Shown in pieces: positions 22,481-45,356 of a stretch of DNA of 64,000 nucleotides; position 1 is the stretch's first letter, and every line of letters begins with the position of its first letter. The translations under genes were made by a program, and so were the position numbers. This DNA is from an uncultured Gemmiger sp. (GTDB lineage Bacteria > Bacillota > Clostridia > Oscillospirales > Ruminococcaceae): assembly GCA_947629015.1 (NCBI GenBank), contig CANRCB010000003.1:48727-112726 (forward strand), read 5' to 3'. The notes below the pieces were generated by a model, which worked only from the letters and a program-made list of their open reading frames with translations, was not told the origin of the DNA and made no database searches.

Positions 22481-23620
22481 TTGAAAATTGTGATCCTTGG
22501 CCCGGTATACCCCTACCGCGGCGGCATCGCGCAGTATACCGGTCTGATGGCGCAGAACCTTGGCAGGCGGCACTCCGTCGTCAACGTTTCCTACTCGCTG
22601 CAATACCCGAGCTTTCTGTACCGGAACGAGCAGAAAGATCCGTCCAACGACACTTTCAAAGCGCCAGACACACGTTATTGGCTCAACACTGTCAACCCGT
22701 TTTCCTGGTTGGCCACCGCGCGGCGCATCAACAAACTGGCGCCGGATGTCGTTATCGTACAGTGGTGGCACCCGTTTTTTGCCCCGGCTTACTGGAGCCT
22801 GCTCAAACTGCTCAACGGACGCATCCGCGTGCTGTTCTGCTGCCACAATGTACTGCCGCACGAGGAGTTCCCTTGCAAAAAGCTGCTGGCAAAAATGGTG
22901 TTGCGGCAAGGGGACGGCTTTTTCATCCACAGCGATACCGATGAGGCGGATCTGCGTGCCTTGGTGCCGGCGGCGCGTTATATCCGGATGCCGCTGCTGA
23001 CCTTCAACGCTTTCCGGCAAAAAGGTTTGACGCGCGCGGAGGGCAGGCAGGCGCTCCGCCTGCCGATGGATGCCGAGGTACTGCTGTTTTTCGGCTTTAT
23101 CCGCCAATACAAAGGGCTGAAGCACCTGCTGCGCGCCATGCCGGCCATAGTGGCCGCAAGGCCGAAAGCCCGCCTTTTTGTTGTGGGGGAATTTTTTGAG
23201 GGCAATAAGGCCGAATATCTGGAACTGATCAATTCTTTGCAACTGCCGGCGGGCGCCCTGACGTTGGTGGACGGGTATCTGCCGGATAAGGAAGTGGAGC
23301 CGTATTTTACGGCCAGCGATCTGCTGGTGTTGCCATATGAAAGCGCTACGCAGAGCGCCGTGGTCCAAACGGCGTATGACTTTGGCAAGCCTGTTGTGGC
23401 AACGGCGGTTGGCGGCCTGCCGGAGGTGGTTTTGGACGGCGTGACCGGGTATCTGGTGCCGCCGAAAGACGAAAAGGCTCTGGCGGAGGCGGTCATCCGC
23501 TTTTTTGCGGAGGAAAAGGCCACCGCCTTTGCGCAGGGCATCCGGGAGGAAGCCCACAAATATTCCTGGGACCGCATGAACGAAGCGGTCGAAAAACTGT
23601 ATGAGGAGTGCCAGAAGTGA
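22481..23620 (+). CDS. Glycosyltransferase family 4
   Basis: LKIVILGPVYPYRGGIAQYTGLMAQNLG...LLFFGFIRQYKGLKHLLRAMP...LPYESATQSAVVQTAYDFGKPVVATAVGGLPEVV. Confidence 0.9.
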   Translation: MKIVILGPVYPYRGGIAQYTGLMAQNLGRRHSVVNVSYSLQYPSFLYRNEQKDPSNDTFKAPDTRYWLNTVNPFSWLATARRINKLAPDVVIVQWWHPFFAPAYWSLLKLLNGRIRVLFCCHNVLPHEEFPCKKLLAKMVLRQGDGFFIHSDTDEADLRALVPAARYIRMPLLTFNAFRQKGLTRAEGRQALRLPMDAEVLLFFGFIRQYKGLKHLLRAMPAIVAARPKARLFVVGEFFEGNKAEYLELINSLQLPAGALTLVDGYLPDKEVEPYFTASDLLVLPYESATQSAVVQTAYDFGKPVVATAVGGLPEVVLDGVTGYLVPPKDEKALAEAVIRFFAEEKATAFAQGIREEAHKYSWDRMNEAVEKLYEECQK

Positions 23621-24602
23621 AGATCCTTGTTACCGGCGCTACCGGATTTATCGGACAAAAGTTATACCACAAGCTGTCCGGCCTGGGGCATGACTTGCGT
23701 CTGCTTGTCCGGGATCCCGCCCGAGTTATGCGGGGGGGGGTAATGCCGAACTAATCGTTGGAGATGTTACTGACCCCGACTCCCTGCGTGGTTGCTGTGA
23801 TGGCATGGATGTCGTTTTTCATCTGGCCGCTTTGATGGGGCACGATACCCCTTCGCAAGAGAGCTTTGCCCGTTTCCGCAAGGTCAATGTGGAAGGGTTG
23901 AGAAATATTGTGGCTGAGGCAAAAAAGAGCCATGTCAAGCGCTTCATCCACCTGAGCAGCACCGCGGCTATGGGCCTGCTGGAGGATGCACTCGTCAATG
24001 AAGTGACTTCCTGCAAGCCGTATACCCCCTATCAGGTCACCAAATATGAAGGGGAACAATATCTGCTGGAGGAGTGGCGCAAAAACGGTTTCCCTGTGAT
24101 CATCCTGCGCCCCTCCATGATTTATGGCCCCGGCTTCAAGGGCGATTTCCTGACCTTGGCCAAGGTGTGCAAAACGGGCTTTTTCCCCACCATCGGGCAC
24201 GGCAAGAACCTTTCGCCCGCGCTTTATATCGACGATCTGATCGATGTCCTTCCGAAATGCATTGACCATGGCCGTATGGGCGAGATCTATCTGCTGTCTT
24301 CCGAGCAGTCGTATCCACTGCGCCAGGCTTCTGCCATCATTGGCAAAGCGCTGGGCAAAAAGCTGCATTATGTGTATGTGCCGGTGGGGATGGCGATATT
24401 TGGTGCCAGAGTACTGGAAAAGGGAATGCCATTGCTGGGGCGAAGATCCCCGGTGACGGAACGCAATATCCGCTCCACCGTGACGGACAGGACCTTTGAT
24501 GTGACCAAGGCAAAACGTGAGCTGGGTTTCCGGCAACAGGTGCCGTTGGAACAGGGCCTGACAGAAGCGGTCCATTACTTTGTGCAGGAGCATTACCTTT
24601 GA
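23617..24602 (+). pseudogene. NAD-dependent epimerase/dehydratase frameshifted at a G9 tract (putative phase-OFF allele)
   Basis: Frame 1: VKILVTGATGFIGQKLYHKLSGLGHDLRLLVRDPARVM then RGGVMPN*. One extra G (or two fewer) joins this to NAELIVGDVTDPDSLRGCCDGMDVVFHLAALMG... in the +1 frame, which stays open to 24602. Confidence 0.85.
23732..23740 (+). repeat. Poly-G tract, G9
   Basis: ...GAGTTATGC GGGGGGGGG TAATGCCG...; located exactly at the frameshift. Confidence 0.95.
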
Positions 24603-30293: not shown

Positions 30294-31070
30294 ATGAAGG
30301 TCGTGATTTTGGCCGGCGGGTTCGGCACCCGTATCAGCGAGGAGAGCGTGCTCAAGCCCAAACCCATGGTGGAGATCGGCGGTAAGCCCATCCTGTGGCA
30401 CATCATGAAGGGCTATGCCCACTATGGCTACACCGATTTTATCATCTGCGCCGGGTATAAGCAGGATGTCATCAAGCAGTATTTCTTTGACTATTACCTG
30501 CACAACGCCGATGTCGCCTTTGATTTGGCGACCAACTCCATGCAGGTGCTCAACAGCCATGCCGAGCCGTGGAAAGTGACGGTGGTGGACACCGGCCTCA
30601 ACACCATGACGGGCGGACGTCTCAAACGCGTGCAGGAATATATTGGCAACGAGCCTTTCATGCTCACCTACGGCGACGGCGTCTCGGACATCGACCTCAA
30701 TGCATTGGAAGCCTTCCACAGGGCGCACGGCAAGCTGGTCACGATGTCCAGCTACAACGTTGGCCAACAGTTCGGCGTGCTGGATGTGGATGCCCAGGGC
30801 CTGGTGACCGGATTCCGCGAAAAGCAGGAAATGGACGGCAGCATGATCAATATCGGCTTTATGGTCTGCCAGCCGGAATTCCTTGACTATATCGAGGGGG
30901 ATCCCATTGTGCTGGAAAAGCAGCCGTTGGAGACGGCAGCCAGGCAGGGCCAGCTGCAAAGCTGCTGCCACAAGGGCTTTTGGAAGTGCATGGATACCGT
31001 GCGGGATAAAAACCTGCTGGAGGAACTTTGGAACAGCGGCAAAGCGCCATGGAAGGTGTGGAAAGATTGA
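30294..31070 (+). CDS. rfbF: Glucose-1-phosphate cytidylyltransferase
   Basis: MKVVILAGGFGTRISEESVLKPKPMVEIGGKPILWHIMKGYAHYGYTDFIICAGYKQ. Confidence 0.95.
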   Translation: MKVVILAGGFGTRISEESVLKPKPMVEIGGKPILWHIMKGYAHYGYTDFIICAGYKQDVIKQYFFDYYLHNADVAFDLATNSMQVLNSHAEPWKVTVVDTGLNTMTGGRLKRVQEYIGNEPFMLTYGDGVSDIDLNALEAFHRAHGKLVTMSSYNVGQQFGVLDVDAQGLVTGFREKQEMDGSMINIGFMVCQPEFLDYIEGDPIVLEKQPLETAARQGQLQSCCHKGFWKCMDTVRDKNLLEELWNSGKAPWKVWKD

Positions 31071-32164
31071 TGGATCTGAGCTTTTACAAAGGCAAACGCG
31101 TCTTTGTTACGGGGCACACCGGCTTCAAGGGCACCTGGCTGTGCCGGATGCTGGTGGGTGCCGGCGCGGTGGTCACCGGCTACAGCCTTGACCCGCCGAC
31201 CGACCCGAACCTGTTCGCCCTGGCGGGGCTGGAAGGCAAAATGACCGACGTCCGCGGCGATATCCGTGACCTGGAACGCCTCAAAAAAGCGTATGACGCG
31301 GCGGACCCCGAGATCGTGCTGCACCTGGCCGCGCAGCCCATCGTACGGGACAGCTATAAGGATCCGCGCTACACCTACGAGACGAACGTCATGGGCACCG
31401 TTGATCTGCTGGAGTGCGTGCGCCTGGCCGTGGCCGCGGGCCGGGGGCCCAAATCGGTGCTCAATGTCACGACCGACAAGGTCTACCACAACAATGAATG
31501 GTGTTGGGGCTACCGCGAGGAAGAGCCGCTGGACGGGTACGACCCGTATTCCAACTCCAAAAGCTGCTCCGAACTTGTCACCCACAGCTACATCAACAGC
31601 TTTTTTGCCGCCCCCGGTGCGCCGGCGGTGTCCACCGCGCGGGCGGGCAATGTCATCGGCGGGGGAGACTTTGCCAATGACCGCATCATCCCGGACTGCG
31701 TGCGTGCCATGCAGGCCGGGCAGGCCATCGGCGTGCGCAACCCGTACTCCACCCGGCCCTACCAGCACGTGTTGGAGCCGCTGGCTGTCTACCTGACCAT
31801 CGCCCAAAAGCAGTATGAGGATAAAAAGTACGCCGGCTTTTACAATGTGGGCCCCGACGACTGTGACTGCCTGACCACCGGCGAACTGGTGGATCTTTTC
31901 TGCAAGACCTGGGGCGAGGGCGCCCGGTGGGAAAACCGTGCCGAGCCCGGCGCCCCGCATGAGGCGACCTTCCTCAAGCTGGATTGCAGCAAGATCAAGG
32001 CGACTTTCGGCTGGCGGCCGCGCTGGCATATGGACGAGTGTATGCGGATGACCTGCCGCTTTGCCAAGGTTTGGCTGGCCGGCGGCGATGTCCCCGCCGA
32101 GATGGATGCCGAGATCACTGCCTTTTTAGGCAGAGATTGCCCCCAAAACGCAAATTGTGGATGA
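31070..32164 (+). CDS. rfbG: CDP-glucose 4,6-dehydratase
   Basis: MDLSFYKGKRVFVTGHTGFKGTWLCRMLVGAGAVVTGYSLDPPTDPNLF...YDPYSNSKSCSELVTHSY. Confidence 0.94.
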   Translation: MDLSFYKGKRVFVTGHTGFKGTWLCRMLVGAGAVVTGYSLDPPTDPNLFALAGLEGKMTDVRGDIRDLERLKKAYDAADPEIVLHLAAQPIVRDSYKDPRYTYETNVMGTVDLLECVRLAVAAGRGPKSVLNVTTDKVYHNNEWCWGYREEEPLDGYDPYSNSKSCSELVTHSYINSFFAAPGAPAVSTARAGNVIGGGDFANDRIIPDCVRAMQAGQAIGVRNPYSTRPYQHVLEPLAVYLTIAQKQYEDKKYAGFYNVGPDDCDCLTTGELVDLFCKTWGEGARWENRAEPGAPHEATFLKLDCSKIKATFGWRPRWHMDECMRMTCRFAKVWLAGGDVPAEMDAEITAFLGRDCPQNANCG

Positions 32165-34040
32165 TTCGTCGCCAACTGGATGCCCGCAGGACGGGATATA
32201 CCTTCGAGAAGGGAGAGCAAATGTTTTGGGAAAGCCGGACATTTTGAAGAAACCGCAAAGCCGGCAGAGGTTTTACACGGCCGTATTTTGCGCGGCAGCC
32301 GTTCTTGTTACCGTTGCGTGGTTTATGTACATCCGCGTCATTTTGAATTATGAGCGCGCAGGCGACGATTCGTATGATCATTTGGTCTGGTGGTACAGGC
32401 TTGCCCATGAAGGTGCGTGGAACATTTGGGCTGAGGGTCTGCGGGAACTGAAAAATCAGTTGCTGTTGAAAGTAGACCGCTTTTATCCTTTTAATGCTCG
32501 CGGCGTGGATCGTGTTGTCTGGCATTTTACGGAGAGCATCGTTTCTTATCGGTTGTTTTTGATTACCCTTAGCTGTGCCACGGGGATTGCGTTTGGCACT
32601 CTCCTGTGGCGGCTTACCAACAAAAAATGGCTTGGAATGGCGTTTTTTGCCCTGATGCCGCTGATGTTTTGCCTTCCTGGCGGGATCATGACAAGTTATG
32701 ACGGAATTGTTACCAATACGCTGCTCAGGGCACTTCTTTCGGCACATTGTATGGTCAGCTGGGCGCACACAAGGCATTGGCGTTGGGCGGGCCTCTCGGC
32801 ATTTTTCATGTTTATGAGCTGTGGAACGTATGAATTGGGTTATATCCTGATCATCGCCTTGGGCTTCTTCGCTCTGATGCTCCACGACCGATTCCGGGAC
32901 AGCGTCTGTACAGGGCTGCCTGCTGCAGTGGGGGAATTGATCGCAATGGGGTTCCGCGTAGCCAGCGGCAGGGGGAAGGCTGCCAATGCCAGCGTGGATT
33001 TTAACTTCGATATCCCCAAAATCGTTGAGACAACGCTAAAACAGATGTGGGGGGGGGTACCAAACGGCTTAGCCATAGCGTCAAAACGTCCTTGGCCCGA
33101 AACATGGACGTATGGTGACTTGTTTTGGTCTTTTTGTCTGGCTTTCGTGTGCGTTGCAGCGCTTTATCTTATCACCGTCCCATTGAGCCGAAAGCAATGG
33201 GTCTGCCTGTCTTTTGCCGGGCTCTGTATCCTGGCAGGGCCGGCGTTGATGATAGGGCTTTCCAGCAAGTATCAGACAGTAGGGTGGATATCCTGGCGCA
33301 CGACTTACATCCCCGCAGAGATGGTATCTTACGGTGTGGGATGTACAGCCATGCTCCTTATGCTGGGGGCGCTGCAGCTTGTGCGCGGCGCAAGGCATCG
33401 GAAGATCCTGCGCCTTGGCTTTGCCGGGGCGATGGTGGTATTGCTGACGGCCAGCGGTATTTATACACGATCCATAACACGGGTCGTTTATCCGCCGGAG
33501 TCCCGCTACAATTATGAACTTCATGCCGCCAGCATCACGGATGGCATTGCGGACAATGTCAGGGCCGAGGATATCCTGTTCCTGAATTTCAGTCCCTATG
33601 GCGGCAATGAAAGGGCGGCGCAATCCTTTTTCCGCCGATACGGTGAGCGGGAATTGCAAGTCTATCCCAGCCGCTATTGGACCCAGAACAACCCGGCCGA
33701 GGAAATAGCAGAGGACACAACGCTCTATCTTATGGGCATCAGCGACCATGTGAATGCAAGGAGCGCCAGCGATTACAGTATCGTGTGGTTGGGATATGCA
33801 CAGGATAAAGAAGCGACCCTGATGCGTGATGTAAGGATCTATATCGACGGCGCAAAGATACCGGAAAACGCGGTTCTGCAATACAGCGTGAAAATGCCGG
33901 ACGGAAACGCCGAGCAGCGGATGGTTGCACTGAATACTTTGCCGCGCACCGAGATCAATGAAAAGGGAAGATATTTTGTCATCCTGAATGATCAGAATAT
34001 CGATACGGCAACATTTCTGTGTGAGGCTGCACCCGCCTGA
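32157..34040 (+). CDS. Multi-TM membrane protein (GT-C-like), contains an in-frame G9 tract; start codon uncertain
   Basis: Hydrophobic segments; ERAGDDSYDHLVWWYRLAHEGAWNIWAEGLRELKNQ; possible starts are GTG 32157 or TTG 32226. Confidence 0.7.
   Translation: MDDSSPTGCPQDGIYLREGRANVLGKPDILKKPQSRQRFYTAVFCAAAVLVTVAWFMYIRVILNYERAGDDSYDHLVWWYRLAHEGAWNIWAEGLRELKNQLLLKVDRFYPFNARGVDRVVWHFTESIVSYRLFLITLSCATGIAFGTLLWRLTNKKWLGMAFFALMPLMFCLPGGIMTSYDGIVTNTLLRALLSAHCMVSWAHTRHWRWAGLSAFFMFMSCGTYELGYILIIALGFFALMLHDRFRDSVCTGLPAAVGELIAMGFRVASGRGKAANASVDFNFDIPKIVETTLKQMWGGVPNGLAIASKRPWPETWTYGDLFWSFCLAFVCVAALYLITVPLSRKQWVCLSFAGLCILAGPALMIGLSSKYQTVGWISWRTTYIPAEMVSYGVGCTAMLLMLGALQLVRGARHRKILRLGFAGAMVVLLTASGIYTRSITRVVYPPESRYNYELHAASITDGIADNVRAEDILFLNFSPYGGNERAAQSFFRRYGERELQVYPSRYWTQNNPAEEIAEDTTLYLMGISDHVNARSASDYSIVWLGYAQDKEATLMRDVRIYIDGAKIPENAVLQYSVKMPDGNAEQRMVALNTLPRTEINEKGRYFVILNDQNIDTATFLCEAAPA
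33049..33057 (+). repeat. Poly-G tract, G9 (in frame: M-W-G-G-V-P)
   Basis: CAGATGT GGGGGGGGG TACCAAAC. Confidence 0.95.
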
Positions 34041-34129: not shown

Positions 34130-35476
34130 ATGCCAAACTGGAAAAACGAAGCTGAGGCCCGTGCCCAAATCAAGGAATTGGTCACCCAATATTACCACGA
34201 TTTCAAAGAGAAAAAAGAGCCCTTTCAGCCCGGGGACCGCATCACCTACGCGGCGCGCGTGTTTGACGAGAAGGAGATGTGCGCCCTTACCGACGCCACG
34301 TTGGATTTCTGGCTGACCACCGGCCGCTTTGCCGAAGAATTTGAAAAAGGATTCGCCAAATGGCTGGGCGTGCGTTTTGCAAACCTCGTCAACAGCGGGT
34401 CTTCGGCCAACCTCATCGCGTTCATGGCGCTGACGGCGCCGGAACTTGGCGAGCGGCAGATCAAAAAGGGCGACGAGATCATCACCGTGGCCTGCGGTTT
34501 CCCCACCACCGTCACGCCGGCTTTGCAGTACGGCGCCGTGCCGGTGTTCGTGGATGTCACCGTGCCGCAGTACAACATTGATGTGAGCAAGCTGGAGGCC
34601 GCGCTCTCGCCGAAAACCAAGGCCGTGATGATCGCGCACACGCTGGGCAATCCGTTCGACCTTGCCGCTGTCAAGGCGTTCTGCGATGCGCACAAGCTGT
34701 GGCTGGTCGAGGACAACTGCGATGCGCTCGGCAGCACCTACACCATCGACGGGCAGACACGCTTCACCGGGACCTGGGGCGACATCGGCACCAGCAGTTT
34801 CTATCCGCCGCACCACATGACGATGGGGGAGGGCGGCTGCGTCTACACCAATGACCCGCTGCTCAACCGCCTGATCAAGAGCTACCGCGACTGGGGGCGG
34901 GACTGTGTCTGCCCCTCCGGGCATGACAATTTCTGCGGCCGCCGCTTTGACGGCCAGTACGGCGAGCTGCCTGCCGGCTATGACCACAAGTATGTCTACA
35001 GCCATTTCGGCTATAACCTCAAGGTCACCGATATGCAGGCGGCCGTTGGGTGCGAGCAGCTCAAAAAATTCCCCGCCTTTATCGAGCGCCGCCGCCACAA
35101 CTGGCAGCGCCTGCACGATGCGTTGGCCGCAAGCCCCGTGGCGGACAAGATCATCCTGCCGCAGGCGGCGCCCGGCAGCAAGCCTTCGTGGTTCGGGTTC
35201 CTCATCTCGGTGCGGCCGGAAAGCGGGCTTTCCCGCAACGCCGTCACGCGGTATATCGAGGATCACAACGTGCAGACCCGGCTGCTGTTCAGCGGCAACC
35301 TGGTCAAGCATCCCTGCTTTGACCAGATCCGCGGGACCGATGCCTACCGCGTTGTGGGCGGGCTCGAAAACACGGACTTTATCATGAACAACACCTTCTG
35401 GGTCGGTGTTTACCCCGGCATGACGGATGAGATGATCGACTATATGGCAAAGACGATCGAGGAGGCTTTGCGGTAA
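34130..35476 (+). CDS. rfbH: CDP-4-keto-6-deoxy-D-glucose 3-dehydrase (PLP-dependent)
   Basis: Aspartate aminotransferase-fold protein with NLVNSGSSANLIAFMALTAPELG..., VEDNCDALGSTY, TSSFYPPHHMTMGEGGCVYTND (His replaces the internal-aldimine Lys, as in RfbH/ColD-type dehydrases). Confidence 0.93.
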   Translation: MPNWKNEAEARAQIKELVTQYYHDFKEKKEPFQPGDRITYAARVFDEKEMCALTDATLDFWLTTGRFAEEFEKGFAKWLGVRFANLVNSGSSANLIAFMALTAPELGERQIKKGDEIITVACGFPTTVTPALQYGAVPVFVDVTVPQYNIDVSKLEAALSPKTKAVMIAHTLGNPFDLAAVKAFCDAHKLWLVEDNCDALGSTYTIDGQTRFTGTWGDIGTSSFYPPHHMTMGEGGCVYTNDPLLNRLIKSYRDWGRDCVCPSGHDNFCGRRFDGQYGELPAGYDHKYVYSHFGYNLKVTDMQAAVGCEQLKKFPAFIERRRHNWQRLHDALAASPVADKIILPQAAPGSKPSWFGFLISVRPESGLSRNAVTRYIEDHNVQTRLLFSGNLVKHPCFDQIRGTDAYRVVGGLENTDFIMNNTFWVGVYPGMTDEMIDYMAKTIEEALR

Positions 35477-35913
35477 TGCTGAAAGCGCTGTGGGCGCGCT
35501 TGGGCGTACATACCTCTGCCGAGGCCCGGACGTTGCTTTGGCAGTTTTGTAAGTTCGGTATGGTCGGCTTAAGCAACACGGCCGTCAGCATGGGGGTCTA
35601 CTACCTGTTTTTGTGGCTGGATCCAAATCTGTATATGGTCGGTAGTGTGCTTGGCACGATCTTGAGCATCGCCAATGCCTTCTTCTGGAATGATCGGTTC
35701 GTTTTTACCGGTAATGAGCGGGATTTAAAAAGTACCCTCAAACGTCTGGGCAAAACTTATATCAGCTATGGGGGAACTTCGATCTTGTCCAATGTGTTGC
35801 TGTGGGTGGAAGTAACGTTCTTCCATGTCGGCAAAAGCATTGCCCCCGTCGTAAATCTGCTTGTTACCATTCCGATCAACTTTGTCATCAATAAGCTGTG
35901 GACCTTCCGCTGA
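35476..35913 (+). CDS. GtrA-family flippase-like protein
   Basis: LWQFCKFGMVGLSNTAVSMGVYYLFLW...SIANAFFWNDRFVF...NLLVTIPINFVINKLWTFR: GtrA hallmarks. Confidence 0.9.
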   Translation: MLKALWARLGVHTSAEARTLLWQFCKFGMVGLSNTAVSMGVYYLFLWLDPNLYMVGSVLGTILSIANAFFWNDRFVFTGNERDLKSTLKRLGKTYISYGGTSILSNVLLWVEVTFFHVGKSIAPVVNLLVTIPINFVINKLWTFR

Positions 35914-35943
35914 ACCCGGATGTCTGCTGAAAAGGAGAATTTC

Positions 35944-36987
35944 ATGGAAGGTTCCATCCAACTGCTGGACTGCACCCTGCGCGACGGTGGCTTTTGCTTT
36001 GAAGATGCAGCTTTGAAAGGCTGGAGCGAAACCTGCTATTCCCAACAGGATATCCGCAGCATCATCAGCGACCTGACTGCCAGTAAGGTCGAGATCGTTG
36101 AGATCGGGGCGGTAGAGATATCGCCCAATGACAAGCGGAAATACGCGATCTATCAAAATATTGAGGCAATTTCTGAGACGATGCCCGTTGCGCAAACGGG
36201 CGGCCCTTTGTACGCAGCGCTGTACCGCGGCCCCGATACGCCGCTGGAGGACATCCCAATCTGGCGGCCGGGCTTATGCCCGGGGGTGCGGGTCATTTTG
36301 CGGTATTCACAGCTGCAAAAATCGGTCGATTTCTGTGCCGGTCTGGCAGCCAAAGGGTATAAAGTGTTCGTGCAGCCTATGCTGACCATGCGCTATACCC
36401 CACAGGAGTTGGATCTGTTGGTGCGATCCGCCAATGCGATGGGGGCTTATGCGCTCTACATCGTGGACAGTTACGGGTATATGAACGGTGCAGATGTGCA
36501 GCGGCTGTTCGATGTGTATGACGCCGGTTTGCGCCCGGAGATCCGCATCGGTTTCCACGCCCACAACAACATGAATCTGGCGTTCGCGAATGCATTGGCC
36601 TTTCTGGCCCATCATGGGGCGCGGGACATTATTGTGGATGCCTGTGCATTGGGGGTAGGGCAGGGCGCCGGCAATCTGCAGACCGAGATCATTGCCCATC
36701 ATTTGAACACAAATGCCGGCAAACACTATGACTACAGTGCGGTATTGCAGGCATGCGAAACGGTGAGCGCCCTGAGCCCTGACCCGTTGTGGGGGTATTC
36801 GCTCACCCGATTTTTACCGGCTATCCATAAAGTGGCATACAAATACTCGTTGGCTCTGCGCAAACAGTACGGTCTGCCGTATGTGGAGATCGACCGCATC
36901 CTTGCCAATATGCCGGAGGACCTCCGTCATCGCTATACAGCAGAAAACACCGTTGAGTTGCTCCGGCGGACAGGTCACACCGTGTAA
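35944..36987 (+). CDS. DRE-TIM metallolyase/aldolase (HMG-CoA lyase/4-hydroxy-2-oxovalerate aldolase-like)
   Basis: LLDCTLRDGG near the N-terminus and GFHAHNNMNLAFANALA metal-binding motif. Confidence 0.85.
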   Translation: MEGSIQLLDCTLRDGGFCFEDAALKGWSETCYSQQDIRSIISDLTASKVEIVEIGAVEISPNDKRKYAIYQNIEAISETMPVAQTGGPLYAALYRGPDTPLEDIPIWRPGLCPGVRVILRYSQLQKSVDFCAGLAAKGYKVFVQPMLTMRYTPQELDLLVRSANAMGAYALYIVDSYGYMNGADVQRLFDVYDAGLRPEIRIGFHAHNNMNLAFANALAFLAHHGARDIIVDACALGVGQGAGNLQTEIIAHHLNTNAGKHYDYSAVLQACETVSALSPDPLWGYSLTRFLPAIHKVAYKYSLALRKQYGLPYVEIDRILANMPEDLRHRYTAENTVELLRRTGHTV

Positions 36988-37018: not shown

Positions 37019-38722
37019 ATGCAAGCGGCTGACTACATTGCCGGTTTTTTGGCCCAAAACGGTGTGACCGATGCCTTTGGCATCCCCGGCGGCGTTATCT
37101 TGGAACTGCTGTATGCCCTGGACCGGGCCGAAGGCATCACGCCACACCTGTGCTACCATGAGCAGGGCGCCGCCTTTGCGGCCGCCGGGTATGGCCAGTG
37201 CGGGCCGGTGCCCGGCGTGGCGTTTGCCACCTGCGGCCCCGGCGTGACCAATACGCTGACCGCTGTGGCCGATGCCTACTGTGATTCCACCCCCATGCTA
37301 GTCTTTACCGCCCATGCCCATGCCGGGCAGGAACCTGCACCCGATGGGGCACGGTTCTACCATGGGCAGGAGATGGCGCTTGCCCCGGTGTTTGCCGCCG
37401 TGACCAAGGCGTGCATACGCGTCGATGCGCTGGCGGAACTGCCCGGCACCGTTTTGGCAGCCTGGGCCGCGGCCACAACAGGCCGCAAGGGCCCAGTGGT
37501 GGTGGATATCCTTTCCGGCCTGTTCACACAGGAGCTGCCTACCGATATGCCGGCGGCGCCAACTATCTCGCCTTCTGCCACCGATGCCGCGGCGGCCGCC
37601 GACGACATCGCCCGGCACCTTGCCGCAAGCAAGCGCCCGGTGCTGCTTTTCGGTAAGGGCATCCGCCTGGCCGGTGTGCGGGCACAGGCCGCCGCCTTTG
37701 CCGAAAAATGGGGCATTCCGGTGCTGTCCAGCCGTTACGCGCAGGACATTATGCCGGGGTCGCCGCTGTATTTCGGTTACATTGGCACCCACGCCGTGCG
37801 TGCGGCCAATTTTATCCTGTCCAAGGCGGATCTCATCGTCGCGCTGGGCAACCGGCTGGCGTTTCCGGTGCAGTCCCAAAGTTTCCGCCCGCTGACGGAG
37901 CGCACGAAGATCCTGCGCGTCGATGTCGACCCGGCGGAGCTTGGCCGCGCCGTGCCCAACACGGCCGGCTATTGCGCCGACCTGGCAGATGTCCTGCCTG
38001 CTTTGGCACGCCTGGAACCCCGCGGCGCCGGGTATACCGGCTGGCTGGAGGTCTGCCGCCGCCTGCAAAACGCGCTTGCCGGGTATGATACGCCGGAGCC
38101 TGTGCAGCTGATGGCTGAGGTCTTGCGTTGCGCAGGGCCAGGCTGTACCGTTACCAGCGATGTCGGCAACAATGAGATGTGGCTTTCCCGCGCGTACCAT
38201 CTGGCGGGGGCGCAAAACCGCGTCCTCTATTCCCAGACATTTGGCGCGCTGGGATGCTCTTTGCCAAAGGCCATCGGCGCGCAGTTTGCCACCCGGGCCC
38301 CGGTGCTGTGCTTTACCGGAGACCAGGGTCTGCAAATGAACGTGCAGGAGTTACAAACGGTCGCCGTCAACCGGCTGCCCATCCTCATTGCGGTGCTCAA
38401 CAACCGCGCTTCCTCAATGATCCGCGAGCATGAGCAGGTGCGCCATCCCGGGCACCCGCTGCTGGTCACGGATGCCAGCGGCTACGCCGCTGCGGACCTG
38501 CAAAAGTTGGCCGGCGCCTACGGTATCCCATACCGGCGTTGGCGGGAACTGCCGCCGCCCGAAAGGCAGGCCCTGCTGCGCGATATCTGCGGGCCACTGC
38601 TGCTGGATATCGAGGTGGAGGACCGCTATGATGTCCAGCCAAGCCTCAAACGCGGGGAGCCGTGCCAGAAGCTGTTCCCATATCTGGATGCAGAACTGTA
38701 CAGTGAACTGGATGAATTGTAA
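37019..38722 (+). CDS. ThDP-dependent enzyme of the acetolactate synthase/YerE type
   Basis: Three-domain layout: YHEQGAAFAAAGYGQ (activating Glu), CGPGVTNTLTAVADAY, and C-terminal TGDQGLQMNVQELQTVAVNRLPILIAVLNN ThDP-binding motif. Confidence 0.85.
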   Translation: MQAADYIAGFLAQNGVTDAFGIPGGVILELLYALDRAEGITPHLCYHEQGAAFAAAGYGQCGPVPGVAFATCGPGVTNTLTAVADAYCDSTPMLVFTAHAHAGQEPAPDGARFYHGQEMALAPVFAAVTKACIRVDALAELPGTVLAAWAAATTGRKGPVVVDILSGLFTQELPTDMPAAPTISPSATDAAAAADDIARHLAASKRPVLLFGKGIRLAGVRAQAAAFAEKWGIPVLSSRYAQDIMPGSPLYFGYIGTHAVRAANFILSKADLIVALGNRLAFPVQSQSFRPLTERTKILRVDVDPAELGRAVPNTAGYCADLADVLPALARLEPRGAGYTGWLEVCRRLQNALAGYDTPEPVQLMAEVLRCAGPGCTVTSDVGNNEMWLSRAYHLAGAQNRVLYSQTFGALGCSLPKAIGAQFATRAPVLCFTGDQGLQMNVQELQTVAVNRLPILIAVLNNRASSMIREHEQVRHPGHPLLVTDASGYAAADLQKLAGAYGIPYRRWRELPPPERQALLRDICGPLLLDIEVEDRYDVQPSLKRGEPCQKLFPYLDAELYSELDEL

Positions 38723-38766
38723 ACCTTGCCGGACGGAAAGCCGGCAGACCAAGGAGTGGACGCCAA

Positions 38767-39738
38767 ATGCCCAGGAAAAAGGTCAGTATTGTGATACCTT
38801 CTTACAATGAGGAGGAAAATATCCGCCCCATTACCGAGACAGTCAGGAACGAGCTCGTGACCAACCTGCCGGAATACGATTTTGAGATCATTATCATCGA
38901 CAACAATTCCCAGGACAACACGCGCCCCATCATCCGCTCCCTGTGTGCGGAGGACAGGCGCGTCAAGGCCATCTTTAATGAGAAAAACTTCGGGCCGGAC
39001 AACTCGCCCTACTATGGCCTGTTGCAGGCCAGCGGGGATTGCGCCATCATCATTACGGCGGATTTTCAGGATCCGGTGGAAATGATCCCCAAGTTGGTGC
39101 GTGAGTGGGAAAAAGGGTATACCGTCGTCACTGCCATCAAAATGCAGAGCAAGGAAAACAAGATCATTCGGTTTCTGCGCACGATCTACTACCGGTTGAT
39201 CCGGCGCATTTCCAATACCGAGATCATCGAGCATTTCACCGGTTTTGGCTGTTATGACAAAAAATTCCTGGATATCCTGCGGGATCTGGACGATCCGGTC
39301 CCGTTCCTGCGCGGCGTTGTGGCGGAGTTTGCCGGCAACCGCTCCTCCTTGAACTATGTGCAGCAAAAGCGTCGTGCGGGCAAAAGCCATATCCGTTTCT
39401 TTACTCTTTATGATATAGCCATGCGCAGCTTTACGTCCTATACCAAGGTGGGCCTGCGGATGTGTACCTTCTTTGGCTTTGGCACGGCGCTGGTCAGCAT
39501 CATCATCGCGCTTTTCTATCTGGTCAAAAAGCTGACGATGTGGAATGAATTCGAATTTGGCATCCCGGTCATTTTGATCGGCATGTTCTTCCTCGGTGCG
39601 GTCCAGCTTATTTTTTTGGGCTTTATGGGGGAATATATCCTGATGATCAACCAGCGCAGCATGAGAAGGCCGCTGGTGGTAGAGCATGAGCGTATCAACT
39701 TTGACGACGAAACTGAAGCTGCATCCCGCGGACAGTGA
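38767..39738 (+). CDS. Glycosyltransferase family 2 (polyprenyl-phosphate glycosyltransferase, GtrB/ArnC-like)
   Basis: KKVSIVIPSYNEEENIRPI...IIIIDNNSQDNTRPII...; FQDPVEMIPKL; two C-terminal TM segments. Confidence 0.9.
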   Translation: MPRKKVSIVIPSYNEEENIRPITETVRNELVTNLPEYDFEIIIIDNNSQDNTRPIIRSLCAEDRRVKAIFNEKNFGPDNSPYYGLLQASGDCAIIITADFQDPVEMIPKLVREWEKGYTVVTAIKMQSKENKIIRFLRTIYYRLIRRISNTEIIEHFTGFGCYDKKFLDILRDLDDPVPFLRGVVAEFAGNRSSLNYVQQKRRAGKSHIRFFTLYDIAMRSFTSYTKVGLRMCTFFGFGTALVSIIIALFYLVKKLTMWNEFEFGIPVILIGMFFLGAVQLIFLGFMGEYILMINQRSMRRPLVVEHERINFDDETEAASRGQ

Positions 39739-39778
39739 CCACTAAGTGGCTACGATAACACAAGGAGGGCAAACGGCA

Positions 39779-40771
39779 ATGCTGCAAGGGAAAACGGTTC
39801 TGATCACCGGCGCAACGGGGCTGCTGGGAAGCAATCTTGCACGGGAATGCCTGCGCCGCGGCGCGAAGGTCATCGCGCTGGGGCGCAGCCGGGAAAAAAT
39901 TGAAAACTGCTTTGCCCCGTATATCGGCACCCCCTCCTTTGACTGTGTGCCGGCGGATATTGGGAAAGAGCCTTTACAGGTACAGGGCCCGGTGGATTAT
40001 ATCTTCCACGCCGCCGGCTCCATCGAATTCAATACCATTGTAAACAGGCCGGTCGATATCATTGCACCCAATGTGATGGGTACCATCTCCTGCCTGGAAT
40101 ATTTGCGGCGCCAAAATGAGGCGGGGGGGGGCCGCGGTCGGTTGATCTATTTCTCCAGCGAAGCGGTGTACGGGAGGGACGGCACGGAACGGGCCGTATC
40201 GGAAAAAGATACCGAATTTGCGGACGCTTTGAGCGCCCCCCGGACGCCGTATTCCCATTCCAAGCGGATGGCAGAGGTCATCGTGAACGGGTATGTAAAA
40301 CAATATGACATAGACGCCGTAAACGTGCGGTTTGCCTGGATCTACGGCAACGCCCGGTACCGCCCGAAGCAGGCTTTGTTTGATTTTATTGAACAGGCCT
40401 TTGCCGGCAAGGACATCTTGATCCGCAACCCGGATACGCCGCGCAGAGACAACCTGTATATGGGCGATGCCATGGCCGCGCTGCTGCTTATTGCGCAGAA
40501 GGGGATGCCGGGCGAGGCGTACAACATTTCCTCTAACGGGGACAAGGGCAACTACGCCGGCGCCGATGAGATCGCCGAAGCCGTCGTGGCCATCGCAAAC
40601 CAAAAAACGGGGAAAAATGTGAAAGTGCTCTATGAGAAGCAGCCATCCGGACGCGAGGGCGGCGTCAGGATGGACAATACCAAATTAAAGCAGCTGGGGT
40701 GGGAGGTATCCACAAGCCTTCAGGACGGTATGCTGAAATTGATCGAGGAGATTGAGAACCATGTATATTGA
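39779..40771 (+). CDS. NAD-dependent epimerase/dehydratase (SDR), contains an in-frame G9 tract
   Basis: MLQGKTVLITGATGLLGSNLARECLRRGAKVIALGR...YFSSEAVYG...YSHSKRMAE. Confidence 0.88.
   Translation: MLQGKTVLITGATGLLGSNLARECLRRGAKVIALGRSREKIENCFAPYIGTPSFDCVPADIGKEPLQVQGPVDYIFHAAGSIEFNTIVNRPVDIIAPNVMGTISCLEYLRRQNEAGGGRGRLIYFSSEAVYGRDGTERAVSEKDTEFADALSAPRTPYSHSKRMAEVIVNGYVKQYDIDAVNVRFAWIYGNARYRPKQALFDFIEQAFAGKDILIRNPDTPRRDNLYMGDAMAALLLIAQKGMPGEAYNISSNGDKGNYAGADEIAEAVVAIANQKTGKNVKVLYEKQPSGREGGVRMDNTKLKQLGWEVSTSLQDGMLKLIEEIENHVY
40123..40131 (+). repeat. Poly-G tract, G9 (in frame: A-G-G-G-R)
   Basis: AATGAGGC GGGGGGGGG CCGCGGTCGG. Confidence 0.95.
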
Positions 40772-42593
40772 AAAAATACACGGCCCTGCCGATGTGAAGG
40801 CGCTCACGCTCGATGAGTGCGCGGCCCTTGCTGCGGAGATGCGGCAGACACTTTTGAACAAACTCAGCAAGACCGGCGGCCATCTGGCGCCCAACCTGGG
40901 GGTGGTCGAGGCCACCGTGGCGCTCCATTATGTGTTCGATTCCCCCAAAGACAAGATCGTGTTCGACGTCTCGCACCAATGTTACCCGCACAAGATGCTC
41001 ACCGGCCGGATGAGCGCCTATACCGACCCCGAAAAATATAAGTCCGTCACCGGCTTTACCGAGATCACCGAGAGCGAGCACGATTTCTTTACTGTAGGCC
41101 ACACCTCCACCTCGATCAGCTTGGCCAGCGGGCTGGCGAAAGCGCGGGATTTCAAAGGTGACCATGAGAACATCATCGCCTTTATTGGCGATGGTTCCCT
41201 TGGCGGTGGTGAAGCGCTGGAAGGTCTTGACTTTGTTGCCTCGGAGCTGGCAAGTAACTTTATCATCGTGTTGAACGACAACAACATCTCCATCGCGGAA
41301 AACCGCGGCGGGTTGTACCGCAATCTGAAACTCCTGCGCGATACGCAGGGCAAGGCCGGGAACAATTTCTTCAAAGCCCTGGGGCTGGATTACCGCTTTG
41401 TCAAGGAAGGGAACAATGTCGCCGCACTGGTCGAGGCGTTCCGGGCGGTAAAGGACATCGACCATCCTGTGGTCGTCCACATCTGTACAAAAAAAGGGTA
41501 TGGATATTCCTATGCGGAAGAAAATCCTGAGTTGACGCATTGCCTCAACAAACCGTTCGATCTGGAAAAGGGCCCGGATTTTACACCGTTCCCTTATGTA
41601 GAAGGAAAAAATGAGCGGTATGACTTTATTATCCGTGAGCATTTGCTGAAGCGTATGCGGGAAGATCCTCTGATCACGACCATCATGGCCTCGACAATGT
41701 ACTGCCTGTCGTTTACGGCGGAAAAACGCGCGGAAGCGGGGGCGCAGTTCATTGATGTCGGCGCTGTGGAAGAACACGGGGTGGCGATGACCGCCGGTAT
41801 CGCGCGCAACGGCGGCAAGCCGGTCTTTGTGACGGCCTCGACCTTTTTCATGCGGACGTATGACCAGATCTCGCAGGAACTGTGCATCAACAAATGCCCG
41901 GCGACCCTCATCGTCATCAATGCGTCGATATATTCGGTGGACGATGTGACCCATACCGAGATCTTTGATATCCCCATGATGTCAAACATCCCCAACCTTG
42001 TCTATCTTGCCCCGACCAACAAGGAAGAATATCTTGCCATGCTGGATTGGAGCATCGACCAGACGCAGTATCCCGTCGCGATCCGCCAGCCACGCAACGG
42101 TGTGTTCCACGCAAAGCATGAGGTCGACAAGGATTACAGCGCCCTGAACCGCTACAAGGTGGAACGAGAGGGGAATACCGTCGCAATCATTGCCCTGGGG
42201 GAATTTTTCCAACTGGGCGAGACGGTGGCAGATCTGCTGCTGGAAAAAGCAAATATCAACGCAACGTTGATCAACCCCCGGTACATCACCGGGATCGATA
42301 AGGAACTTTTGGCATCTCTGCCTGCCAAGCACAAACTGGTGGTCACGCTGGAAAGCGGCTCTTTGGAAGGCGGTTTCGGTGAAAAAGTTGCTTCGTATCT
42401 TGGTATATACGATGGCATCAAGGTCCTGAACCGCGGTTTGCAAAAATCGTTTTTGGATACCGTCCATGTGAGCGCCGATGAGCTGCTTACGCAAAACCGC
42501 TTGCAGCCCGAACAGCTCTGCACGGATATCTTGGCGTTGCTCAACATCATGCAGTATATTTTGGAGGATGGCTATGTTTTTGGAACGGATTGA
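40761..42593 (+). CDS. DXS-like transketolase-family ThDP enzyme, copy 1
   Basis: GGHLAPNLGVVEATVALHYVFDSPKDKIVFDVSHQCYPHKMLTGR; GDGSLGGGEALEGLD...LNDNNISIAEN; DVGAVEEHGVAMTAGIARNGGKPVFVT. Confidence 0.85.
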   Translation: MYIEKIHGPADVKALTLDECAALAAEMRQTLLNKLSKTGGHLAPNLGVVEATVALHYVFDSPKDKIVFDVSHQCYPHKMLTGRMSAYTDPEKYKSVTGFTEITESEHDFFTVGHTSTSISLASGLAKARDFKGDHENIIAFIGDGSLGGGEALEGLDFVASELASNFIIVLNDNNISIAENRGGLYRNLKLLRDTQGKAGNNFFKALGLDYRFVKEGNNVAALVEAFRAVKDIDHPVVVHICTKKGYGYSYAEENPELTHCLNKPFDLEKGPDFTPFPYVEGKNERYDFIIREHLLKRMREDPLITTIMASTMYCLSFTAEKRAEAGAQFIDVGAVEEHGVAMTAGIARNGGKPVFVTASTFFMRTYDQISQELCINKCPATLIVINASIYSVDDVTHTEIFDIPMMSNIPNLVYLAPTNKEEYLAMLDWSIDQTQYPVAIRQPRNGVFHAKHEVDKDYSALNRYKVEREGNTVAIIALGEFFQLGETVADLLLEKANINATLINPRYITGIDKELLASLPAKHKLVVTLESGSLEGGFGEKVASYLGIYDGIKVLNRGLQKSFLDTVHVSADELLTQNRLQPEQLCTDILALLNIMQYILEDGYVFGTD

Positions 42594-44331
42594 CAGCCCG
42601 GCGGATCTTAAACAGCTGAGCATCCATGAATGTGAACAGCTTGCTGCCGAAATACGCACGGCGCTGCTTACGAAGGCCTCTGCGGCGGGCGGGCACCTTG
42701 CATCCAATCTGGGCATGGTGGAAGCGTCCATCGCACTTCACTATGTGTTTGATTCCCCCAAAGACAAGATCGTGTTCGATGTCTCGCACCAGTGCTATAC
42801 CCATAAGATATTGACCGGGCGCAGGGATGCGTTCCTTTGCCCGGAAAAATACGGTACCGCCAACGGGTATACCAACCCCGACGAAAGTGAGCATGATCTC
42901 TTCCGGGTAGGCCATACGGCTACCTCCATCAGCCTTGCCTGCGGCCTGGCCAAAGCGCGGGATATCAACGGCGGCAAGGAAAACGTTATCGCTGTTATCG
43001 GTGACGGCTCCATGAGCGGCGGCGAAGCGTTCGAAGGGCTGGATTACGGCGGCTCGGATATCAACAGCAACCTCATCGTGCTGTTTAACGACAACCAGAT
43101 GTCCATCGCGGAGGATCATGGCGGCATCTACCAAAACCTTGCAAAGCTCCGTGAAACAGAAGGCGCCGCTGAGGAAAATTTTTTCCGAGCCTTTGGGTTT
43201 GACTATCTCTTTGTCAAGAATGGCAACAGTGTGGCGGACGTTGTGGCGGCGTTGCGCCAAGTCAAGGATATCGACCACCCGGTGGTGGTGCACATCTGTA
43301 CCACCAAGGGGAAAGGGTATGCGTATGCCGAAAGCCACAAGGAAAGCACGCACTATGTCCGTCCTTTTGACCTGGCCACGGGCCGGGAGAAAAATGCCTT
43401 TACCGGGGAACGGTATGACCGGTTGATCCGTGATCACCTGCTTGAAAAAATGAAACAGGATCCCAAGATCGTAACGATGATCGCGGCAGTGCCCGATTCT
43501 CTGAATTTCACGCAGGAATACCGTTTGGCCGGCGGAAAGCAATTTGTTGATGTGGGCATCGCCGAGGAGCATGCCATCGCCATGGCCGCCGGCCTTGCCA
43601 AAAACGGATGCAAGCCGGTGTTTGCCACGCTGGCGACCTTCTACCAGCGCACCTATGATCAGATCTCGCAGGAGCTGTGCATCAACAATGCGCCCGCCAC
43701 CCTGATCGTGGCGAATGCTTCCGTCTACGCCGTGAACGATATGACCCATATCGGTATCTTTGATATCCCCATGATGTCGAACATCCCCAACCTTGTCTAT
43801 CTGGCGCCGACGAACCGGCAGGAATACTTTGCCATGCTGGATTGGTCCATCGACCAGACGGAGCATCCTGTGGCACTGCGCGCGCCGCGCAACGGCATCT
43901 TTGAAGCGAAAGGCAGCGTGGATACCGACTACAGCCGGCTGAACGTATATAAGACGGTCACCCGGGGCGAAAAGGTCGCAATCCTGGCGTTGGGCGATTT
44001 CTTTCAGATGGGAGAAGAACTGGCACAAGCCGTCAAGGACGCGTACGGCTTTATCCCCACCCTGATCAATCCGCGCTATATAACCGGATTGGATGAGACG
44101 CTTTTGCAGGAACTCAAGAAGGATCACACGCTGGTCATAACCTTGGAGGACGGCGTGCTGGACGGCGGCTGGGGGCAGAAGATCGCAAGTTTCTACGGCC
44201 CAAGCGATGTCAAGGTATTGAACTATGGCTTAAAGAAAGAGTTTTTGGATCGTTATGATATCAACAAGGTCCTGGAGCGCAACCATCTGCGAGTGGATCT
44301 GATCATGCAGGATATCCGCGGTTTGGTATGA
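42574..44331 (+). CDS. DXS-like transketolase-family ThDP enzyme, copy 2
   Basis: GGHLASNLGMVEASIALHYVFDSPKDKIVFDVSHQCYTHKILTGR; GDGSMSGGEAFEGLD; DVGIAEEHAIAMAAGLAKNGCKPVFAT. Confidence 0.85.
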   Translation: MFLERIDSPADLKQLSIHECEQLAAEIRTALLTKASAAGGHLASNLGMVEASIALHYVFDSPKDKIVFDVSHQCYTHKILTGRRDAFLCPEKYGTANGYTNPDESEHDLFRVGHTATSISLACGLAKARDINGGKENVIAVIGDGSMSGGEAFEGLDYGGSDINSNLIVLFNDNQMSIAEDHGGIYQNLAKLRETEGAAEENFFRAFGFDYLFVKNGNSVADVVAALRQVKDIDHPVVVHICTTKGKGYAYAESHKESTHYVRPFDLATGREKNAFTGERYDRLIRDHLLEKMKQDPKIVTMIAAVPDSLNFTQEYRLAGGKQFVDVGIAEEHAIAMAAGLAKNGCKPVFATLATFYQRTYDQISQELCINNAPATLIVANASVYAVNDMTHIGIFDIPMMSNIPNLVYLAPTNRQEYFAMLDWSIDQTEHPVALRAPRNGIFEAKGSVDTDYSRLNVYKTVTRGEKVAILALGDFFQMGEELAQAVKDAYGFIPTLINPRYITGLDETLLQELKKDHTLVITLEDGVLDGGWGQKIASFYGPSDVKVLNYGLKKEFLDRYDINKVLERNHLRVDLIMQDIRGLV

Positions 44332-44363
44332 CAGGGACTTTTACAGGGGAAGGAGAAAATACG

Positions 44364-45356
44364 ATGAATGCTTTTTCCGGCAAGACCGTTTTGGTCACCG
44401 GCGCCACCGGGCTGCTGGGCAGCCGCCTCATAGACCGTCTTATGGAAAATGTGTGGGGGGGGGTATGCCATATAATCGCCCTCAGCCGCAACGCGCAGAA
44501 GCTGCGGCGCACCTTTGCCGCGTATGAGGGCTTACCGAACTTTACTATGCTGGCGCAGGGCGTGGAAGCCCCGCTTTCCCTGGAGGATACTACCGTTGAC
44601 TATATCTTCCATGCCGCCAGCCCCATTGAGCGCACCGTGATCGAGAGAATGCCGCTCAACGTCATTTCCCCCAATGTTTTCGCCGCCGGGAACCTTTTGG
44701 AACTGCTGCGGGAGCAAAAGCAGAAAAAAGGCGTTTCGGGGCGGATGATCGTCTTTTCCTCCGCTACGGTATACGGCGGCTCCTGCGGAGAGGACCGCAC
44801 TGTGACCGAGGCTGATACCCATTTCACCGAACCGCTGGATTTTTATAACGCGCCCTATTCGCAAAGCAAGCGCATCGCCGAGGTGCTGGCCACCTCCTAC
44901 TGGAAACAACACGGCGTCGAAACCGTTATTGGGCGTTTCAGCTATGTGTACGGCTACAGCGCCTGCCACCCCATGACGGCTTTCTTTGAGTTCCTTGAGC
45001 AGGCGCGCCGTGGCGATCCCATCCGCATCAACGCCGCCGGCCTGCCCCGGCGGGACAACATCTATGTGGAGGACGCCGTTGACGGCGCGCTGTGCCTGGC
45101 CCTTGCGGGCAAACCGGGCGAGGCGTACAACATCTCCTCCAACGGGCAGGGCGGCAACTTTGCCGCTGTGGACGAGATCGCCCGCGTCATGGTGGAGCAG
45201 GCAGGTGCCGGCGGCGGGGTGGCCTGCCCGGAAGGGTTTAAGCATCTGCCAGGCCTGCTTCTGGACAATACCAAACTGAAAACGTTGGGCTGGGAGCTGA
45301 AAACCGATTTAAAAACCGGCATCGCGGCCGTTTTCCGGGCGATGGAAACCGCGTAA
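44364..45356 (+). CDS. NAD-dependent epimerase/dehydratase (SDR), paralog of 39779-40771, contains an in-frame G9 tract
   Basis: MNAFSGKTVLVTGATGLLGSRLIDRLMENVWGGVCHIIALSRN...YSQSKRIAEV. Confidence 0.88.
   Translation: MNAFSGKTVLVTGATGLLGSRLIDRLMENVWGGVCHIIALSRNAQKLRRTFAAYEGLPNFTMLAQGVEAPLSLEDTTVDYIFHAASPIERTVIERMPLNVISPNVFAAGNLLELLREQKQKKGVSGRMIVFSSATVYGGSCGEDRTVTEADTHFTEPLDFYNAPYSQSKRIAEVLATSYWKQHGVETVIGRFSYVYGYSACHPMTAFFEFLEQARRGDPIRINAAGLPRRDNIYVEDAVDGALCLALAGKPGEAYNISSNGQGGNFAAVDEIARVMVEQAGAGGGVACPEGFKHLPGLLLDNTKLKTLGWELKTDLKTGIAAVFRAMETA
44455..44463 (+). repeat. Poly-G tract, G9 (in frame: V-W-G-G-V-C)
   Basis: GAAAATGTGT GGGGGGGGG TATGCCAT. Confidence 0.95.

Follow-up and report, generated by a model that had tools for sequence, protein, structure and literature searches.

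The window analysed here, a stretch of 64,000 nucleotides from an uncultured Gemmiger sp. (a draft genome, 87% complete and in 75 contigs), carries a 15-kb glycan operon that adjoins the RNA-polymerase genes (rpoB upstream region). Its 3' end is formed by two genes for enzymes resembling 1-deoxy-D-xylulose-5-phosphate synthase (DXS), here DXS1 and DXS2, which are flanked by two genes for short-chain dehydrogenases/reductases (SDR), here SDR1 and SDR2. Both DXS-like proteins have been found to belong to a family in which the substrate-binding Arg420 of canonical DXS is lost, and they share their operon with genes for a cytidine diphosphate (CDP)-activated 4-keto sugar. The operon as a whole would produce a CDP-activated, 4-C-branched deoxy sugar that is handed to a GtrA/GT2 system, and for this complete explanation, including the DXS and SDR steps and a switching of the latter, we regard the chances as evenly balanced. 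The block consists of the following genes:

39779..40771, + strand: SDR1, 330 amino acids, extended SDR, Pfam Epimerase
40761..42593, + strand: DXS1, 610 amino acids, PRK12315-type DXS-like enzyme dependent on thiamine diphosphate (ThDP), Asn at the Arg420 position
42574..44331, + strand: DXS2, 585 amino acids, PRK12315-type DXS-like ThDP enzyme
44364..45356, + strand: SDR2, 330 amino acids, extended SDR, Pfam Epimerase

The coordinates, common strand and tight spacing that an earlier note on this DNA had given for the four genes have proved exact: all reading frames are open and lie on the plus strand, with overlaps of 11 nt (SDR1/DXS1) and 20 nt (DXS1/DXS2) or in close succession. The nucleotide-binding and YxxxK motifs are intact in both SDRs (in SDR1 as TGATGLLG together with the catalytic residues SS...YSHSK), which share 43% identity, while DXS1 and DXS2 are 60% identical to each other. 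Both DXS-like proteins contain the Pfam domains DXP_synthase_N, Transket_pyr and Transketolase_C, and share with canonical DXS the domain order, the ThDP motif (GDG) and the catalytic residues E370, H49, H82 and H431.

By score, the two proteins are members of the NCBIfam family PRK12315 (NF008968; 806.2 bits for DXS1 and 857.8 for DXS2, cut-off 510), and with 418.8 and 458.5 bits they stay below the cut-off of 465.95 of the dxs equivalog model TIGR00204. Their best match in the PDB is the solved relative 9KPQ (734 bits), for which no papers have been found in the literature searched. For the residue comparison, 87 proteins have been aligned, namely 12 canonical DXS and 75 members of PRK12315. 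E370 and H431 are invariant throughout and R478 is mostly retained, whereas the position of Arg420 is occupied by arginine in all 12 canonical enzymes and in none of the 75 PRK12315 members, nearly all of which have also lost Asp427. An asparagine takes this place in all members of a clade from glycan loci (11/11, DXS1 and DXS2 included), as compared with 6 of the 64 other PRK12315 proteins. In the DXS of E. coli, R420 and R478 bind glyceraldehyde-3-phosphate, and the variant R478A has a Km for the D-enantiomer (D-GAP) of ∼1.4 mM (PMC11019550). To judge by this residue pattern, the DXS-like proteins have likely kept the decarboxylation of pyruvate and changed the acceptor. A canonical dxs is present on another contig of the genome, so that the pair does not represent the only dxs, one of the two features that together would have spoken against the reading of the earlier note; since Arg420 is moreover lost family-wide, ordinary DXS activity of DXS1 and DXS2 is unlikely, and a housekeeping identity has been rejected on the same grounds.

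Upstream of the block, the operon contains a set of genes that the earlier note had overlooked and that changes the part most probably played by the DXS-like enzymes:

30294..31070, + strand: rfbF, glucose-1-phosphate cytidylyltransferase (TIGR02623, 370.7 bits, cut-off 300)
31061..32164, + strand: rfbG, CDP-glucose 4,6-dehydratase (TIGR02622, 421 bits, cut-off 278)
32157..34040, + strand: polytopic membrane protein, 627 amino acids, without a family assignment, perhaps the GT-C component of a Gtr-type trio, with a run of nine G (G9) at 33049-33057
34130..35476, + strand: rfbH, CDP-4-keto-6-deoxyglucose 3-dehydrase (NF011936, 716 bits, cut-off 423)
35476..35913, + strand: GtrA-family flippase (family match)
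35920..36987, + strand: HMGL-like aldolase, related to 4-hydroxy-2-oxovalerate aldolase (family match)
37019..38722, + strand: ThDP enzyme resembling acetolactate synthase (acetohydroxyacid synthase, AHAS), a YerE/ErwE-like candidate with AHAS-type ThDP decarboxylase domains
38767..39738, + strand: GT2 polyprenyl-phosphate glycosyltransferase of the PgfS/ArnC type (family match)

The AHAS-like protein scores far below the cut-off for biosynthetic AHAS, and a true ilvB is located elsewhere in the genome, which rules out a housekeeping acetolactate synthase. It thus combines AHAS-type domains with a position beside CDP-4-keto-sugar genes and a separate housekeeping AHAS, as would be looked for in an enzyme of the YerE/ErwE type. 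The nearest relatives of the aldolase are 4-hydroxy-2-oxovalerate aldolases, and among 392 genomes of the class only distant, longer proteins (33-35%) have been found to be related to it. Aldolases for 4-hydroxy-2-oxo acids make acids of the type that ErwE uses. According to a 2025 review of sugar-branching ThDP enzymes, YerE uses pyruvate as the source of the C2 unit that it attaches to CDP-4-keto-3,6-dideoxyglucose, while ErwE, acting on the same sugar, prefers 4-hydroxy-2-oxo acids and leads to erwiniose (PMC12247030). Because such acids are what this aldolase would make, aldolase and AHAS-like enzyme are, by analogy, the candidates best suited to form the branch and to join it to the sugar, better than the DXS-like enzymes, and DXS and SDR probably serve to elaborate the side chain or to provide it. 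The addition of a C2 unit by the DXS-like enzymes with subsequent reduction by the SDRs, as put forward earlier, is possible, but the first branching step is probably a different one, as AHAS-like enzyme and aldolase fit this better by the precedent of YerE and ErwE. The related claim that two sugars are formed is unproven, because other cassettes manage with a single DXS/SDR pair.

For the substrates and the order of the steps, including the ketone reduced by the SDRs, we infer the following route. RfbF and RfbG would provide CDP-4-keto-6-deoxyglucose, from which RfbH would remove the 3-OH group, while the aldolase would condense pyruvate with an aldehyde to a 4-hydroxy-2-oxo acid. The AHAS-like ThDP enzyme would decarboxylate this acid and add the resulting acyl anion to the C4 ketone, in the way ErwE does. 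From pyruvate, the DXS-like enzymes may contribute an extra acetyl (C2) unit; its acceptor, not glyceraldehyde-3-phosphate but another aldehyde or a keto group, would belong to a precursor of the side chain or to the sugar itself, and the SDRs would reduce the ketone or ketones so formed. The branched sugar would finally be taken up by the GtrA/GT2 lipid-carrier system for surface decoration, and with G9 tracts in both SDR genes and in the gene of the membrane protein, the final structure might vary by slippage. GtrA and a polyprenyl-phosphate GT2 are both encoded in the operon, as in GtrA/GtrB/GT-C systems. The membrane protein has ∼7 hydrophobic segments and no Pfam match; no homologues have been found among 149 genomes of the family, and its structural model (pLDDT, the predicted local distance difference test score, of 43) is unusable.

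Both the formation of branched CDP-sugars by ThDP enzymes and poly-G switches in gut Gram-positives, as in the pili of Bifidobacterium breve (PMC9187656), are already known. With the pathways to yersiniose A (YerE) and erwiniose (ErwE), the operon shares the genes for a CDP-4-keto-(di)deoxyglucose, a carboligase of the ThDP-decarboxylase type, and an aldolase that fits the donors of ErwE; it differs by its occurrence in gut Clostridia, the extra DXS-like enzyme or enzymes, the poly-G tracts, and an AHAS-like protein whose YerE-like character is not evident from its sequence. The branching enzymes of the transketolase (TK) and alpha-KADH2 superfamilies in miharamycin and paulomycin biosynthesis are likewise ThDP enzymes for which a C2 addition to keto sugars has been proposed, but they are not DXS-like and belong to natural-product pathways, the TK of miharamycin being encoded by a split gene. 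The passages considered of the 2025 review name no DXS-type enzyme, and DXS is not used as a term in it (PMC12247030); in the literature searched, nothing has been found on DXS in capsule loci, nor any description of a DXS-type enzyme in a branched-CDP-sugar pathway, of its residue signature, or of poly-G tracts in its reductases. Tentatively, and with more doubt than confidence, one may postulate that a clade of the DXS superfamily, having lost the phosphate-binding arginine, has been re-purposed in gut Clostridia as nucleotide-sugar carboligases that form a series with a pyruvate aldolase and an enzyme of the YerE/ErwE type, giving a multiply extended branched sugar that is poly-G-switched via its reductases. 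If the DXS-like proteins are indeed sugar-branching enzymes, they would constitute a separate class of enzymes for C-C bond formation, perhaps with non-phosphorylated substrates, and gut Clostridia would be predicted to make a family of branched surface sugars. With the poly-G tracts comes slippage as a possible mechanism of surface variation.

The gene set is not confined to the window. A neighbourhood search for pairs of SDR and DXS-like genes in glycan loci, as the earlier note had proposed, has turned up such pairs in four further cassettes from Clostridia (L037, L044, L057, L096), and in all three whose contig reaches far enough (L037, L044, L096) the pair is accompanied by CDP-4-keto-sugar genes. 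In these three loci rfbF, rfbG, aldolase, AHAS, SDR and DXS recur together in a partly changed order; L057 shows AHAS-SDR-DXS at the contig edge, and L039 contains the full set with a different, classical SDR. Within the genus, AHAS-like and DXS-like genes are both present in 2 of 35 genomes and both absent from the other 33 at the thresholds used. Further glycan-clade DXS have been sought among 399 genomes of the phylum, which contain more distant matches only (52-56%). The comparison with the congener G018 (locus L127) is the most direct, as its operon occupies the same site:

38490..45303, no strand assigned: block replaced in congener G018, both flanks kept at 81-88% nucleotide identity

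G018 retains rfbF (94%), rfbG (88%), GtrA (82%), aldolase (77%) and AHAS-like gene (84%) as well as the rpoB upstream region as in the window, lacks rfbH and the membrane protein, and carries in its 3' part one DXS (57-59%) and a GT2 (62%), with no SDR. The 3' block 38490-45303 has thus been exchanged as a module.

Part of the earlier description as a duplicated block has to be revised accordingly. The SDR and DXS genes do form paralogous pairs, and the gene order is mirrored, yet all genes lie on the same strand. DXS2 is 76% identical to its counterpart in L044 (Lachnospiraceae) as compared with 60% to DXS1, and in a quick tree (support of 95-98 in the Shimodaira-Hasegawa-like approximate likelihood-ratio test, SH-aLRT) it joins L044 and L037, and then L038, L042 and L108, before DXS1. 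By this tree, DXS1 and DXS2 are divergent paralogues from an old split, DXS2 grouping with genes of other species to the exclusion of DXS1; a recent tandem or inverted duplication has been ruled out by the tree together with the congener synteny.

Several observations weigh against the proposed pathway. The looser NCBIfam model PRK05444.2-2 names both proteins DXS, with scores above its cut-off, and most PRK12315 proteins examined are standalone genes of gut bacteria outside glycan loci. The AHAS-like protein reaches 229 bits to AHAS as compared with 173 bits to the YerE-like JanthE (8rph). RfbH is missing from the other cassettes, and its usual reductase partner has not been seen among the genes examined. 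Finally, the cassette of G018 contains one DXS and no adjacent SDR, so that an SDR is not essential there.

In one alternative, which we consider credible though doubtful, the branch is the work of the AHAS-like enzyme and the aldolase, its reduction falls to the SDRs, and the DXS-like enzymes provide just a free precursor of low molecular weight (e.g., a deoxyketose, or an aldehyde for the aldolase), the CDP-sugar itself being no substrate of theirs. The DXS homologues in L038, L042 and L108 would be in line with this, as a free ketol that is reduced and CDP-activated would fit there, and so would the mostly standalone occurrence of the wider family; in four cassettes, however, the DXS gene comes after an SDR of nucleotide-sugar type or at a distance of one or two genes from it, a hint that the substrates may be linked to a sugar. 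Very improbable, by comparison, are ordinary DXS paralogues that deliver 1-deoxy-D-xylulose 5-phosphate for isoprenoids or thiamine and are linked to the glycan operon by chance. Such a role would explain why both proteins are full-length, keep the ThDP and catalytic residues and pass PRK05444.2-2, but it conflicts with the canonical dxs elsewhere, the loss of Arg420 (75/75) and of Asp427 in nearly all relatives, the scores under the TIGR00204 cut-off, and the linkage to glycan genes in unrelated genomes. The overlapping, co-directional genes also recall that DXS is homodimeric and that paralogues could therefore pair into one heteromeric enzyme rather than provide two activities; as neither protein lacks any of the catalytic residues and one DXS gene is enough in other cassettes, we take this to be rather unlikely. 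The SDR genes of the operon contain the following G9 tracts:

40123..40131, + strand: G9 tract in SDR1, loop EAGGGRGR, codon about 115, in frame
44455..44463, + strand: G9 tract in SDR2, codon about 30, in frame, within an insertion of 3-4 residues (VWGGV)

Both tracts, which the earlier note had placed at these codons, are real, in frame and exactly 9 G long, and a third in-frame G9 is the one at 33049-33057 in the membrane-protein gene. Since the two SDR tracts occupy non-homologous sites and that of SDR2 lies within an insertion missing in five relatives, their independent origin, also claimed before, is supported. The gain or loss of one G truncates SDR1 at 176 or 121 amino acids and SDR2 at 54 or 36 amino acids. 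In synonymous-codon shuffles of the 12 operon genes, at least three runs of at least 9 G, as observed (3), have occurred in 3 of 3000 cases, and a run of this length in both SDRs in 0.5%. Across the genome, 51 G7, 0 G8, 12 G9 and 1 G10 runs have been counted, and 33 pooled congeners contain 972 G7, 157 G8 and 83 G9, so that G9 exceeds a geometric decay (hand counts from printed lists, as are the flank statistics below; G029, rich in G7, left out). The tracts are therefore non-random, as the codon-shuffle excess, the pattern of run lengths and the non-homologous placement all indicate.

Switching of SDR1 and SDR2 by slippage is plausible from the sequence, because a change by one G truncates either protein, reading frames are broken at other G9 tracts here, and the length of tracts and the frame vary among related cassettes; the earlier statement that the products are switchable is thereby upheld as plausible only. 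At a homologous acyltransferase position, G9 and an open frame in L039 (5492, Lachnospiraceae) stand against a shorter run and a broken frame in L096 (Clostridia), and a G10 in L096 (tracts at 4500 and 8378) breaks a short SDR/reductase that is intact in L039. Conversely, the tracts might be a neutral outcome of GC-rich codon use, or artefacts of assembly or sequencing, with no switching at all, which we hold to be possible and on the whole unlikely. The G8 words of the window are not unusual (8 observed, with dinucleotide shuffles predicting 6.7), an assembly error is possible as the source of the two SDR tracts in a draft genome of 75 contigs, and poly-G lengths in databases are unreliable (PMC9187656). 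A neutral origin is hard to reconcile with the codon-shuffle excess and the G7:G8:G9 ratio of 51:0:12, with G9/G10 tracts that break frames in the window genome and in G011, with the position of tracts in the interval from a -35 to a -10 hexamer, upstream of a GT2-GtrA pair and of an LRR (leucine-rich repeat) surface protein, and with the open and broken alleles at one position in two related cassettes. The B. breve switch likewise consists of a G-tract within the coding sequence of a surface locus in a gut Gram-positive (PMC9187656), whereas the genes switched here would be sugar enzymes, and the case is known from one genome. No report of poly-G slippage as a source of surface variation in gut Clostridia has been found in a literature search.

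Outside the glycan clade, PRK12315 genes are standalone in the loci viewed and occur in many phyla, mostly from the gut. Members have been seen in Bacteroidota, Melainabacteria, Elusimicrobiota, Rickettsiales, Verrucomicrobiota and Coriobacteria, and this scatter suggests a horizontal spread of the family. Read by eye, the glycan-clade DXS of L038, L042 and L108 are accompanied by LicD and a TagD-like cytidylyltransferase, and those of L038 and L042 additionally by an IspD/TarI-like cytidylyltransferase and an SDR, which suggests a CDP-activated deoxy-polyol or a similar product.

Further tracts have been noted beyond the operon. In the glycan region of the window, an SDR/NmrA-type gene (23617-24602) loses its frame at a G9 (23732-23740) and resembles a gene in the OFF phase; the tracts C1:9882 and C21:34168 also seem to break frames when read by eye. 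In G000, a G9 lies between -35-like and -10-like hexamers at C3:5243 (L010:1501), ahead of the GT2-GtrA pair, and another at C1:211404 (L008:1501), ahead of the LRR surface protein, both being candidate phase-variable promoters; for one G9 promoter, an allelic comparison has been attempted across congeners, in which the region is not conserved. In the congener G011, apparent frameshifts at G9 tracts affect a gene resembling membrane acyltransferases and another of ATP-grasp-like type (L120 and L124), and in L117:1-6501 of the same genome several G8/G9 tracts are located at the 3' ends of apparent nonulosonate-type sugar genes, most of them followed by a similar sequence, TNCTGGAAGCA, perhaps a short repeat. 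A T follows the G9 runs in 11 of 12 cases in G000 and in 12 of 12 in G011, as compared with ∼11% for the G7 runs of the genus.

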